The notes below the pieces were generated by a model that was not told the DNA's origin, ran no database searches, and saw only the letters and a list, made by a program, of their open reading frames with translations. 64,000 nt of DNA from NCBI RefSeq assembly GCF_002192415.1, contig NZ_CP021780.1, positions 7,688,001 to 7,752,000 on the forward strand, given 5' to 3'. The position numbers were made by a program, and so were the translations under genes. This DNA comes from Paenibacillus donghaensis. GTDB taxonomy: Bacteria > Bacillota > Bacilli > Paenibacillales > Paenibacillaceae. This document shows positions 1,288-64,000 of this stretch, one piece after another. How positions within the stretch are numbered: position 1 is the stretch's first letter; the number at the start of each line of letters is the position of its first letter.

Positions 1288-1562
1288 CATTAAATTAGTT
1301 GCGAAACTGCATCTAATTAGCCAAATTTTTCTGTTTTGGAGGAAATAAGTGCGAATACGCATCTATTTTGGATGTTTGAGCATCCCAGGAGTAATTTACT
1401 CGAAATTAGTTGCAGATTTGCACTTATTCGCCTGCTGATGAACGTTTCGGCTGAATTTAGTTGCAGTTTCGCATCTAATTATTCTGAAGGTTCCAGGGCA
1501 GTACTCTAAAACCCGACTGAACCTAAGTAGTAACCACTTTCGCAACTAAATGCTTTATAGAA
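1288..1562 (+). repeat. Family A palindrome-array repeat, copy A1
   Basis: The segment holds several imperfect palindromes of the form TTAGTTGC-(6 nt)-GCATCTAA and ends in CCTAAGTAGTAAC followed by CACTTTCG and the arm CAACTAAAT. The left end appears truncated. The same sequence recurs, diverged, near 6961, 13639, 38119 and 52416. It has no coding content. Confidence 0.85.
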
Positions 1563-6960: not shown

Positions 6961-7512
6961 GATTTAGTTGCAAAAGTGGTTACTACTTAGGTCCCCTAGC
7001 CCTCTTCGCTCGTAATCCTCGCTTCGATTTCAGACGGTTGCGGACTCAGGAGCCTCTATTTGCTGTACATAGGCCGTTTTGTAGGATTAACGGACCCAGG
7101 AGCCTCTATATCACAGAAAACCCTCGCTTTTGAGTCTGTTTTGACGACTTAGGGGCTATACGGTCCGTAAGACGTCAAAAGATCGCAGATAGGAGGAAAT
7201 AGGGGCTATACGGTCCGCTAGAATGCAGGTTACCTAGTTCAAGGGCTTGGAGTCTCGCAGGGTCCTAAGTAGTAACCAAAAGTGCATCTAATTGGCGGAT
7301 TTTTGGAATTTTGGAGGAAATAAGTGCGAAAAGGCATCTAATTTGGTCTTTTGAGCGCCATAGGAACAATTTACTCGGAATTAGTTGCAGAATCGCACTT
7401 AATCGACCATTGGCTCACGATCTGGCTGAAATTAGTTGCAGTTTCGCATCTATTTGCTCCAAACGTTCCACAGTAACCAGCTAATCCTCGCCGGGACCTA
7501 ATAGTAATCGGA
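6961..7512 (+). repeat. Family A repeat, copy A2, split by a 298-bp insertion
   Basis: The family A sequence begins GATTTAGTTGCAAAAGTG, is interrupted by the element at 6979-7276, resumes at the duplicated CAAAAGTG and runs through further TTAGTTGC/GCATCTAA palindromes to CCTAATAGTAAT at 7497-7508. Removing the insertion and one duplication restores the uninterrupted form seen at 38203 and 52490. Confidence 0.88.
6979..7276 (+). mobile_element. 298-bp MITE-like element, copy 1
   Basis: The termini are GTTACTACTTAGGTCCC (6979-6995) and its inverted copy (7260-7276, 16 of 17 bases matching). The element is flanked by the perfect 8-bp direct repeat CAAAAGTG at 6971-6978 and 7277-7284. It has no open frame of note, so it is non-autonomous. 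Internally the segment AGGGGCTATACGGTCCG occurs twice. An almost identical copy is at 38378-38675. The duplicated 8 bp are the centre of a host palindrome. Confidence 0.88.
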
Positions 7513-13638: not shown

Positions 13639-13965
13639 GTTACTACTTAGTCCCAGCGGGGATTTCGAATGTTACCTGGAACGTTCGGAGCAAATAGATG
13701 CGAAACTGCAACTAATTTCAACGAAATCCTGCGCTAGCGGATGATTAAGTGCGAAACTGCAACTAATTTCGAGTAAATCAAGCTTATTTGGCTCGGAAGC
13801 CCAAATTAGATGCCTTTTTGCACTTATTTCCTCTAAAACACAAAAAATCCGCCAATTAGATGCACTTTCGCAACTAAATCATAGTCCAGCTGATGAAGCC
13901 ACCACGGAGTTAAGTTCGCGATGCTTCACATGATCGTTCTCCTCATCCCAAGGCCTAATAGTAAC
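13639..13965 (-). repeat. Family A repeat, copy A3, inverted and bounded by terminal repeats
   Basis: The segment is about 327 bp, from GTTACTACTTAG (13639-13650) to CCTAATAGTAAC (13954-13965), so both ends are inverted copies of the same terminus. The inside is the family A palindrome array in reverse orientation. The flanking 8-mers CCGAAATG and TCGAAAGG match at 6 of 8 positions, consistent with an aged target duplication. Confidence 0.82.
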
Positions 13966-26025: not shown

Positions 26026-26453
26026 ATAGGTTGAAGCTGCAAGGCGCGCCGCAGATTACCCGTAAGCTGAGGCGGAGCTGAACGCATAGTTATGGTGCGC
26101 GCCCTCCAGCCTGAGGCTCTACTCTTCTACGCCTTCATGTGCGGCTCCCAACCTATGCTGCCCGTTCTAAACTCCGATCCTGCGGACCCCATAGCCCCTG
26201 TTTGCTGAAAATTAGCCATTTGGTGCGTTTAACGGACCGTATAGCTCTTAAAGAGGCCAAATGCAGCATAATAACACTCTAAAACCACTAATAAGGGCAG
26301 CTGAGTCCGCAAGATCATGATTAGTGGGCATGTAGGCAGAACAGCGGCTGTGGAGTCCGTAACGTGGGGCGTGGTGAGGGCGGGAGGCGAATGAACAGGA
26401 AACGATAGGTGCACGGCGGAATGGAGTCGTTTCTTGCCAAAGTAATGTACAAA
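26026..26453. other. Gene-free stretch with degenerate repeat modules
   Basis: No gene is visible. From about 26170 to 26365 short modules recur that resemble the inside of the 298-bp elements (GCGGACCCCATAGCCCC, TAACGGACCGTATAGC, GAGTCCGCAAG, GAGTCCGTAACG). The similarity is patchy, so an old remnant is possible but not proven. Confidence 0.4.
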
Positions 26454-38118: not shown

Positions 38119-38755
38119 GTTGCTGATCACTTAGGCCTCGGCATGAGGATAGGATAGAAAACTCAGCTCCGTAGTGGCTTGATAGGCTCGAAACTTTGAT
38201 TTAGTTGCGGAAGTGCATCTAATTGGCGGATTTTTTGCATTTTGGAGGAATTAAGTGCAAAAAGGCATCTAATTTGGCTTTCTGAGCGTCAGAGCCCAGA
38301 TTTACTCGAAATTAGTTGCAGAATCGCACTTAATCGATCGTTGGCTGATGATTTGGCTTAAATTAACTGCACTTTCGGTTACTACTTAGGTCCCCTAGCC
38401 CTCTTCGCTCATAACCCTCGCTTCGATTTCAGACGGTTGCGGACTCAGGAGCCTCTATTTGCTGTACATAGGCCGTTTTGCAGGATTAACGGACCCAGGA
38501 GCCTCTATATCACAGAAAACCCTCGCTTTAGAGCCTGTTTTGACGACTTAGGGGCTATACGGTCCGTAAGACGTCAAAAGATCGCAGATAGGAGGAAATA
38601 GGGGCTATACGGTCCGCTAGAATGCAGGTTACCTAGTTCAAGGGCTTGGAGTGTCGCAGGGTCCTAAGTAGTAACCACTTTCGCATCTATTTGCCCGAAA
38701 TGGTCCAGAGCAACCTTCTAAATCCGCGCTTGAACCTAGTAGGATCAACCTAATT
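38119..38755 (+). repeat. Family A repeat, copy A4, split by a 298-bp insertion
   Basis: From an eroded terminus (TTGCTGATCACTTAGG) the copy runs through CTCCGTAGTGGC, GATTTAGTTGCGGAAGTGCATCTAATTGG and further palindromes, is split at CACTTTCG by the element at 38378-38675, and resumes with CATCTATTTG to CCTAGTAGGATCAAC. Orientation is as A2 and A5. Confidence 0.82.
38378..38675 (+). mobile_element. 298-bp MITE-like element, copy 2
   Basis: Same 298-bp length as copy 1, with only about six base differences seen by eye. The termini are GTTACTACTTAGGTCCC and GGGTCCTAAGTAGTAAC. Perfect 8-bp direct repeats CACTTTCG flank it at 38370-38377 and 38676-38683. No coding capacity. The target is again the centre of a palindrome of repeat family A (AACTG-CACTTTCG-CATCTA). 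Confidence 0.88.
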
Positions 38756-52415: not shown

Positions 52416-52890
52416 GTTACTGCTTAGGTCTTTGGGGTGCTGAGAACATCGAAGATTCGGCTCCATGGTGGCTTCCTAAGTTCAAACCATTGATTTAGTT
52501 GTGATAGTGCATCTAATTGACGCATTTTTACCATTTTGGAGGGAATAGATGCAAAAAGGCATCTAATTTGGGCTTTGGAGCGTGAGACGAGAGGTTTACT
52601 CGAAATTAGTTGCAGAATCGCACTTAAACGCCCGCTAGTCCGTGTTTCGGCTGAAATTAGTTGCACTTTCGCATTTATTTGCTCTGAACGTTCCAGGGCG
52701 ACCTGCTAAATCTTCGCCGGTTTTAAGTAGTAACCACTTTCGCATCTATTTAATTCGAGCGTTCCAAATGACTTGCTAAATCCCCGTTGGTCTAAAGCAG
52801 TAACCACTTTCACATCTATATTTACTCCGCACGCCCAAAGTAACATTCCCAATCCACGCACGGGCCTCAGTGGTGTAGTAACCACATTCG
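52415..52890 (+). repeat. Family A repeat, copy A5, with two partial right-end copies in tandem
   Basis: The left end GGTTACTGCTTAGG is at 52415-52428, the palindrome array follows, and the first right end TAAGTAGTAAC closes at 52734. Then CACTTTCG-CATCTATTT starts a 70-bp piece ending TAAAGCAGTAAC (52804), and a 78-bp piece ends GTAGTAAC (52882). The outer flanks are CACAATTG (52408-52415) and CACATTCG (52883-52890), 6 of 8 matching. Confidence 0.8.
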
Positions 52891-62811: not shown

Positions 62812-64000
62812 GTGCGCCCAGCATGGGCGCTATCTATAGGGTGAAAGTCCCGAATGGTGAAGGCAGTAGTAGCCATTAGCTTAAGACAAGGGTGTCCACC
62901 GTGAGGTGGAATCTGAAGGAAGTCGGCGGCAAACCTCCGGTTCGAGGAACACGAATCTCATATCAGGCTAACGTTCATTGGATGAGACTGCATAACAAGT
63001 TAAAGTCCTTACTGCCGAAGATGAACGGAAGTAAATGAGGCGAATAGATGGAGGGAAAGATAGCGTTCTTACCTGGGGAGATCTGTGCGAAACACGAAGA
63101 CAACTTTGTAACCCTGTTCGTGAGGACAGGCTGAACGCACAGAAGTCAGCAGACGTCATAGTACGCAAGCTGTTGCAATAGCTGCGGAAGGACCGAACAT
63201 GAAATAGGTATTTGTACATCCAGGCGTTCAAGATGAGTAATGAAAGCAGAATATCCGAAAGGAACTGACTGAAGAAGGAAGCGGTGAATTCCGTGTGGGG
63301 CTTCGGCAGGGCAGAATTCATCTCTGGCACAAGAGGAAAGTACAAATCACGTAAAGAGAGGTATATAAAAAAAATGTTGGAGCAGTTACTGTCACGGGAA
63401 AATCTTCTACAAGCGTTAAAGCGTGTGGAAGCCAATAAAGGAAGCCATGGCGTAGATGGGATGTCCGTAAAATCCTTACGAGAACACATCGTACACAACT
63501 GGCAATCCTTACGGCAAGCGATAGAAGAAGGAACCTACCAACCTAGTCCCGTGCGTCGGGTCGAAATCCCGAAACCGAATGGCGGAGGTGTCAGGAAGTT
63601 AGGAATCCCTACCGTGACCGACCGAATGCTACAGCAAGCCATCGCCCAGGTGTTAACCCCATTGTTCGATCCACAGTTTTCCGAGCACAGTTATGGATTT
63701 CGCCCCAAAAGGCGGGGACATGATGCCGTAAGGGAAGCAAGAGGATTCATGAAAGAAGGATACCGATTTGTAGTCGACCTGGACTTGGAGAAATTCTTTG
63801 ATCGCGTCAACCATGACCGTCTAATGCTGAAGATTTCGGAGAAAGTGAAGGACAAGAAAGTCCTTTTACTTATTCGTAAATACCTTCAATCGGGCGTGAT
63901 GGAGAACGGGTTAGTTCAACCGACACTAGAAGGAGCACCGCAAGGGGGTCCTTTGAGTCCGTTATTATCTAATATTGTACTGGACGAGTTGGACAAGGAA
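62812..64000 (+). mobile_element. Group IIC intron (5' part; 3' end outside the window)
   Basis: The RNA starts GTGCGCCCAGCATGGGCGCT at 62812 and follows the group IIC secondary-structure layout known from the Oceanobacillus iheyensis intron: AGGGTGAAAGTCCCGAA, GAAGGCAGTAGTAGCC, ACAAGGGTGTCCACC, GCGGCAAACCTCCGG, GAGGAACACGAA, TGAGACTGCATAAC, and GGGGAGATCTGTG. The maturase gene lies inside domain IV. Domains V and VI and the 3' splice site are not in the window. It is not a gene-interrupting insertion here, as it follows a terminator. Confidence 0.9.
63374..64000 (+). CDS. ltrA: Group II intron reverse transcriptase/maturase (partial)
   Basis: This frame begins ATG TTG GAG CAG at 63374, with AGAGAGG 12 nt before, and remains open to the window end (209 codons). 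RT0 and RT1-4 motifs are visible: GSHGVDGMSVKSL, RRVEIPKPNGGGVRKLGIPTVTDRMLQQAIAQVLTP, SYGFRPKRRGHDAV, FVVDLDLEKFFDRVNHDRL and GAPQGGPLSPLLSNIVLDELD. The catalytic YADD lies further on, outside the window. It enables splicing and retrohoming of the intron. Confidence 0.93.
   Translation, partial: MLEQLLSRENLLQALKRVEANKGSHGVDGMSVKSLREHIVHNWQSLRQAIEEGTYQPSPVRRVEIPKPNGGGVRKLGIPTVTDRMLQQAIAQVLTPLFDPQFSEHSYGFRPKRRGHDAVREARGFMKEGYRFVVDLDLEKFFDRVNHDRLMLKISEKVKDKKVLLLIRKYLQSGVMENGLVQPTLEGAPQGGPLSPLLSNIVLDELDKE

Follow-up and report, generated by a model that had tools for sequence, protein, structure and literature searches.

The window analysed here, a 64,000-nucleotide stretch of the Paenibacillus donghaensis genome (contig NZ_CP021780.1), holds two copies of a 298-bp element with inverted ends. 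The locus raises the question of which transposon family the element belongs to, what moves it, and how its landing sites are chosen. The features of the window on which the answer rests are collected in Table 1.

Table 1. Features of the window. Positions count from the first letter of the window.
Feature	Position	Strand	Remark
298-bp IS66 MITE, family A, copy 1	6979..7276	+	
298-bp IS66 MITE, family A, copy 2	38378..38675	+	
8-bp target duplication, left, copy 1	6971..6978	.	
8-bp target duplication, right, copy 1	7277..7284	.	
8-bp target duplication, left, copy 2	38370..38377	.	
8-bp target duplication, right, copy 2	38676..38683	.	
Four-unit array inside copy 1	7041..7217	+	centres 50-61-50 apart
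Unit cores of copy 1	7041-7059, 7091-7109; 7149-7167, 7199-7217		first two in one orientation, last two inverted
B-type array receiving copy 1	6964..7453	+	first unit split (6964-6978, 7285-7291)
Further units of array receiving copy 1	7320-7341, 7381-7402, 7432-7453		
B-type array receiving copy 2	38201..38690	+	fourth unit split (38363-38377, 38684-38690)
Further units of array receiving copy 2	38201-38222, 38251-38272, 38312-38333		
Intact B-type array with one IS66-type end	1295..1534	.	array 1295-1478, end 1519-1534
IS66-type end with intact B-type array	13639..13877	.	end 13639-13654, array 13694-13877
Intact B-type array	52416..52804	.	array 52495-52678; IS66-type ends 52416-52431, 52719-52734, 52789-52804
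A-type four-unit array, no IS66-type end within 260 bp	26179..26362	+	

Copies, ends and family of the 298-bp element

The first-pass annotation had described a MITE-like element without a transposase, present in two 298-bp copies with about six differences, near-perfect 17-bp inverted ends and perfect but different flanking 8-bp repeats, and all of this was borne out. Exactly 6 sites distinguish the two copies, the inverted ends (GTTACTACTTAGGTCCC and GTTACTACTTAGGACCC) match at 16 of 17 bases, the flanking repeats are CAAAAGTG for copy 1 and CACTTTCG for copy 2, and the ORF list of the window holds no ORF of at least 100 aa that overlaps either copy. The two insertions were indeed independent, as had been claimed: the copies split different units (the first and the fourth) of different palindrome arrays and their duplications differ, which also excludes a segmental duplication. 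When the 298 + 8 bp are removed, array spacings of 50 and 51 bp are restored at the two insertion sites.

A genome-wide search, as proposed in the same annotation, gave at least 40 places that match the element in the 8.54-Mb genome (40 of the 266 first-look candidates were scored; of the 41 matches obtained, the last two belong to a single place). The end sequence alone, with up to 3 mismatches allowed, was matched 577 times (291 forward, 286 reverse) and the reversed control pattern 25 times (12 and 13), so that several element families share these ends. An orientation bias by contig half was considered for the 40 copies (6 plus and 13 minus versus 14 plus and 7 minus; Fisher p 0.056) and is not claimed.

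The 30 best-matching copies were fetched, and both ends could be placed in 29. The 8-bp duplication is perfect in 17 of these 29 and carries at most one mismatch in 22; two or more mismatches were found in 7. Five copies (L006, L007, L008, L009 and L023) have flanking 8-mers that differ at 2–6 positions while both are still halves of a unit, a pattern that recombination between copies or conversion of units could give. Two further copies, L017 and L018, owe their mismatch to the loss of one or more bases at an end. In the proposed search of other Paenibacillus genomes, no long match was detected in 99 other genomes (up to 7 candidates scored per genome), and the matches of 27–78 bases in 5 of the 99 were, by eye, array units.

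The annotation had left the family unnamed and had suggested looking for full-length, transposase-bearing relatives with the same ends. A scan of named genomes for the end sequence gave 69 stretches, 44 of them from Paenibacillus (by eye, own genome excluded), and a scan of viral contigs gave 16. In one Paenibacillus MAG (L145), two such ends enclose a 490-aa ORF that was identified as an IS66 transposase (PF03050, E 8.9e-55; NF033517, 311.7 bits). Three close relatives of it are present in the own genome, with 51–52% identity to L145; two of them are identical to each other, and the third is 86% identical to these. The own-genome copies matched NF033517 above cut-off (308.8 and 315.8 bits) and also PF03050. 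By reading, all three of these autonomous copies have the same ends as the MITE, 8-bp duplications and the same palindromic target. They are about 1.6 kb long with a single ORF, which in the 1603-bp copy spans 509 codons from stop to stop and nearly fills it. This 1603-bp copy is nested in an element of family B (described below), so that a unit of 1919 bp results (308 + 1603 + 8). A fourth, distant IS66 protein of the genome (29%) is encoded without such ends. Among 27 end pairs chosen from the named genomes, 10 are 1.5–1.64 kb long, and 6 of those 10 contain open frames of at least 491 codons, the family having been checked for L145 alone.

Canonical IS66 elements carry tnpA and tnpB accessory genes. 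The autonomous copies have one ORF only; this fits the single-ORF group (ISBst12 type). Where the first bases inside the ends were compared by eye, no similarity between the MITE and the autonomous copies was seen. The MITE reading is supported, and the family to which the 298-bp element can be assigned from its sequence is IS66, of the single-ORF type. Because ends, duplication length and target are shared, an IS66 transposase coded elsewhere in the genome very probably moves the element in trans. The resemblance to the single-ORF group lies in the IS66 transposase, the ends shared with autonomous copies and the 8-bp duplication; the difference is that the 298-bp element codes for nothing and that its interior is a palindrome array.

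Insertion at the centre of a palindrome

The target is a palindrome of about 22 bp, TTAGWTG[CN6G]CAWCTAA, which is split at its centre by the insertion. This unit motif (up to 3 mismatches) is split in 28 of the 29 scorable family A copies, the exception being L025, and a second unit lies at array spacing beside 19 of the 29. A wider sample of 1.985 Mb, made up of 20 stretches picked near hits and 80 in four near-contiguous blocks, yielded 58 paired elements, each flanked by a duplication with no more than one mismatch. The motif (up to 2 mismatches) fits 379 positions in that 1.985 Mb, and 36 of the 58 elements lie inside it. Arm complementarity of at least 5 of 7 was found for 27 of the 58, compared with 1.6% of 200,000 random sites. 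Of the 22 elements outside the motif, 12 show left-hand WTAG or right-hand CTAW, compared with 1.0% of random sites. Palindrome targeting by this IS66 MITE family is therefore shown statistically, by the anatomy of the insertion sites.

The target palindromes, hereafter B-type units, occur in sets. The 287 strict matches are spaced, where they lie less than 200 bp apart, mostly by 50 (60 cases), 51 (55) and 61 bp (52). At up to 2 mismatches, the 379 matches form 54 sets of four, 12 of three and 17 of two, with 93 single units, so that 216 of the 379 belong to full sets of four. All 54 full sets have spacings of 50/51, 60/61/63 and 50/51 bp. In 22 cases, IS66-type ends flank the set on both sides at a distance of 30–90 bp; 21 sets have such an end on one side only, and 11 have none at that distance. 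Most of these palindrome sets are carried by family B, a second MITE with the same ends as the 298-bp element. Since many B-type units are carried by MITEs with these ends, the family lands in itself, the B-type MITE being older than the copies landing in it. A comparison of unit and spacer conservation in B was not used, as the arrays were chosen by their unit motif and the comparison is biased.

In IS66 relatives elsewhere, the preference for palindromes is weaker or different. In the named genomes, 21 of the 27 end pairs have a duplication with at most one mismatch (a set that leaves out three further IS66 copies from G134 and G117); 8 of these 21 score at least 5 of 7 and 13 score below. 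Six of the eight belong to the 14 scored elements of Paenibacillus sp. J5C2022, of which the other 8 score below, and those six sit at the centre of TTTGTAC[8]GTACAAA. At three J5C2022 loci (L105, L120 and L134), this 22-bp palindrome recurs in tandem arrays with a 52-bp period; it is common to the three, and the 30-bp spacers differ between loci, as though each array had expanded locally with the palindrome kept fixed.

It could be argued that the transposase does not read the palindrome at all and is led there by a host protein bound to the arrays. The J5C2022 elements speak for this, as they have the same ends and their palindrome is unrelated, so that what the insertion sites have in common could be a bound array instead of a sequence. 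We nevertheless consider such guidance rather unlikely. A-type arrays of the own genome, which have the same geometry, appear to be unused: a scan for half-units gave 3 hits that look like divergence or chance, none of them convincing as an insertion. Furthermore, the WTAG/CTAW bases kept at insertions outside units suggest direct reading. Given that no convincing insertion was found in these A-type arrays, we favour direct reading of the palindrome by the transposase. That insertion is random and only copies in harmless intergenic repeats persist would agree with the position of the window copies, and of all 18 full arrays of a second genome (G052, below), outside ORFs in a mechanical ORF scan, but is extremely improbable, since selection cannot fix the same base of a 22-bp palindrome in 28 of 29 copies, nor place 36 of 58 elements in so few positions.

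We propose the following sequence of events. An IS66 transposase would act on the inverted ends of about 17 bp and move the element in trans. As the sequences show, a staggered cut at insertion leaves the 8-bp duplication, and the statistics of the target place this cut at the centre of the palindrome. Given the anatomy described above, with many palindromes in fours of fixed spacing and mostly within the older family B MITE, new copies come down in older relatives instead of genes, presumably to the benefit of element and host. The four-unit array carried along would probably be the binding site of a putative sequence-specific DNA-binding protein. Taken together, the IS66 MITE, the transposase acting in trans, palindrome-centred insertion, landing in older relatives and the carried array form a reading that we hold with high confidence.

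Four-unit arrays in this genome and across the genus

The four units of the 298-bp element itself have another sequence than the B-type units and the same 50-61-50 spacing. Elements of families A and D both carry units of non-B sequence, of which two point one way and two the other. The distance between neighbours is 50 bp where the orientation is kept (45 and 41 cases) and 61 bp at the inversion (49 cases). In a search limited to spacings of 49–51, 59–62 and 49–51 bp, 37 of 42 full A-type arrays were exactly 50-61-50. An IS66-type end was found within 260 bp of 35 of the 42 and at none of the other 7. The window array of this kind listed in Table 1 sits between two convergent ORFs of the mechanical ORF list. 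Family C, which rests on copies read by eye, is represented by two copies with spacings of 51-61-52 and 51-61-51, and a MITE of J5C2022 has direct units at 51-62-51-62-51. The C-type unit pattern was no commoner than its control (29 versus 46; 75 versus 72).

In B elements, the centre of the first unit tends to lie about 67, 78 or 88 bp from the end. Helical phasing is weak and not independent: in B, periods of 10.25–10.5 give R values of 0.66–0.67 and a period of 11.5 gives 0.63, and in A a period of 12 (R 0.47) beats 10.5 (R 0.45). We remark that the spacings of 61 and 50 bp differ by roughly one helical turn.

Across the genus, 37 of 100 genomes, the own genome included, have more than twice as many matches to the A-type unit pattern as to its control (these are counts of units, not of arrays). 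The B-type unit stands out in the own genome alone, with 661 matches versus 17 for the control; every other of the 100 genomes has 40 or fewer. Units of the form TAACGG..CCGTTA are present in many species, and TTAGATGC..GCATCTAA is found in this genome only among the 100.

Loci with several units close together were selected for inspection in two other genomes, G017 and G052. Of the 20 loci in G017, 19 have spacings of 49–51, 60–61 and 50 bp, some with one weak unit; the remaining locus (L266) is partial. When 15 arrays were compared in register, leaving out L266 and four arrays with a 60-bp middle spacing, identity was 26–28% in the flanks, 70–77% in the units and 37–49% in the spacers; the flanks are thus unrelated to one another. 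Inspection of these flanks by eye revealed no IS66-type ends. A target duplication at their borders was rejected, as the only shared offset (5 of 19) proved to be a 3-mer inside the units. The spacers of L261–L280 have A and T runs at similar positions, e.g., GGGAAAT..ATTTCCC in the third spacer, and such runs might make the DNA bend.

In G052, full arrays are present at 18 of 20 loci and are exactly 50-61-50 at 15. Here the array is embedded in a longer repeat, which accounts for the 38–41% identity of the flanks; bare arrays are therefore not the rule everywhere. This longer repeat is dispersed (L291–L308), and its left part contains a terminator-like hairpin, GAAACCC..GGGTTTC. In a simple ORF scan, all 18 full G052 arrays lie outside ORFs: 10 between convergent, 7 between co-directional and 1 between divergent ORFs. 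Four-unit arrays also exist outside IS66 elements, and the array keeps its spacing within 1–2 bp across unit families and genomes; the sequences of units and spacers differ.

Nature of the array and relation to known systems

The array may be an old DNA site for a putative binding protein, which IS66 elements use as a landing site and carry along. We infer a protein-bound DNA array from the kept geometry, the variable spacers and the lack of covariation. A broader proposal is tentative. The four-palindrome array (units of about 22 bp, 50-61-50) would be an unnamed, genus-wide element of chromosome biology that forms a phased complex with its putative binder. Its unit sequence would be replaced in concert between lineages as the specificity of the binder changes, and IS66 elements would have evolved to home on the array and spread it, giving rise to MITEs with landing pads for their own kind.

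Alternatively, the internal units could serve the IS66 transposase as accessory sites within its synaptic complex and not form a separate element. The fixed unit spacing inside A, B and C elements and the clustered end-to-unit distances in B are consistent with this. We find it improbable, given the arrays without IS66-type ends in this genome (7 of 42) and, as judged by eye from the flanks, in G017, an autonomous copy that is nearly filled by its ORF, and the weak phasing. An even less probable explanation is a structured RNA or a REP-type RNA element with the palindromes as hairpins. The element folds as RNA better than shuffled sequences on both strands (z −3.85 and −3.41), as would be expected anyway from its inverted ends and units. 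However, 0 of 26 predicted pairs were changed on both sides in the 15 aligned G017 arrays, and the window has no Rfam match except a group II intron. The latter is represented by domains at 62895–63193 (RF02001, 147.5 bits; RF01998, 70.6 bits).

The array resembles REP/BIME elements, which are likewise high-copy, short extragenic palindromes with regular spacing and alternating orientation; BIMEs bind IHF and gyrase (PMC2817692). It differs in its four units with fixed 50-61-50 spacing. In counts of Y1_Tnp matches, four unit-rich genomes showed no consistent link to Y1 (RAYT-type) transposase genes: 5 each were found in G014 and the own genome, 0 in G017 and 0 in G052. The arrays may still be RAYT-driven REP sequences.

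The closest precedent, in other transposon families, is provided by insertion sequences such as IS1397, ISPpu9, ISPa11 and ISRm22, which target REP palindromes; the source names IS3, IS110, IS4, IS256 and IS5, and the term IS66 is absent from it (PMC1525189). Common to both is a high selectivity for repeated extragenic palindromes; the difference is that many of the targets described here are carried by MITEs of the same family. The open-licence literature that was searched yielded no account of such arrays or of IS66 elements homing on palindromes, although one may exist elsewhere. Homing on palindromes that are largely carried by the own family is a variant that was not found in the open-licence literature searched.

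With these results, IS66 would join the transposon families whose members home on repeated palindromes. They also reveal transposons whose preferred targets lie largely on older elements of their own family, an arrangement that would keep damage to genes low. The array may be a larger discovery than the IS66 MITE. That its spacing is kept while the sequences differ is unusual for a repeat.
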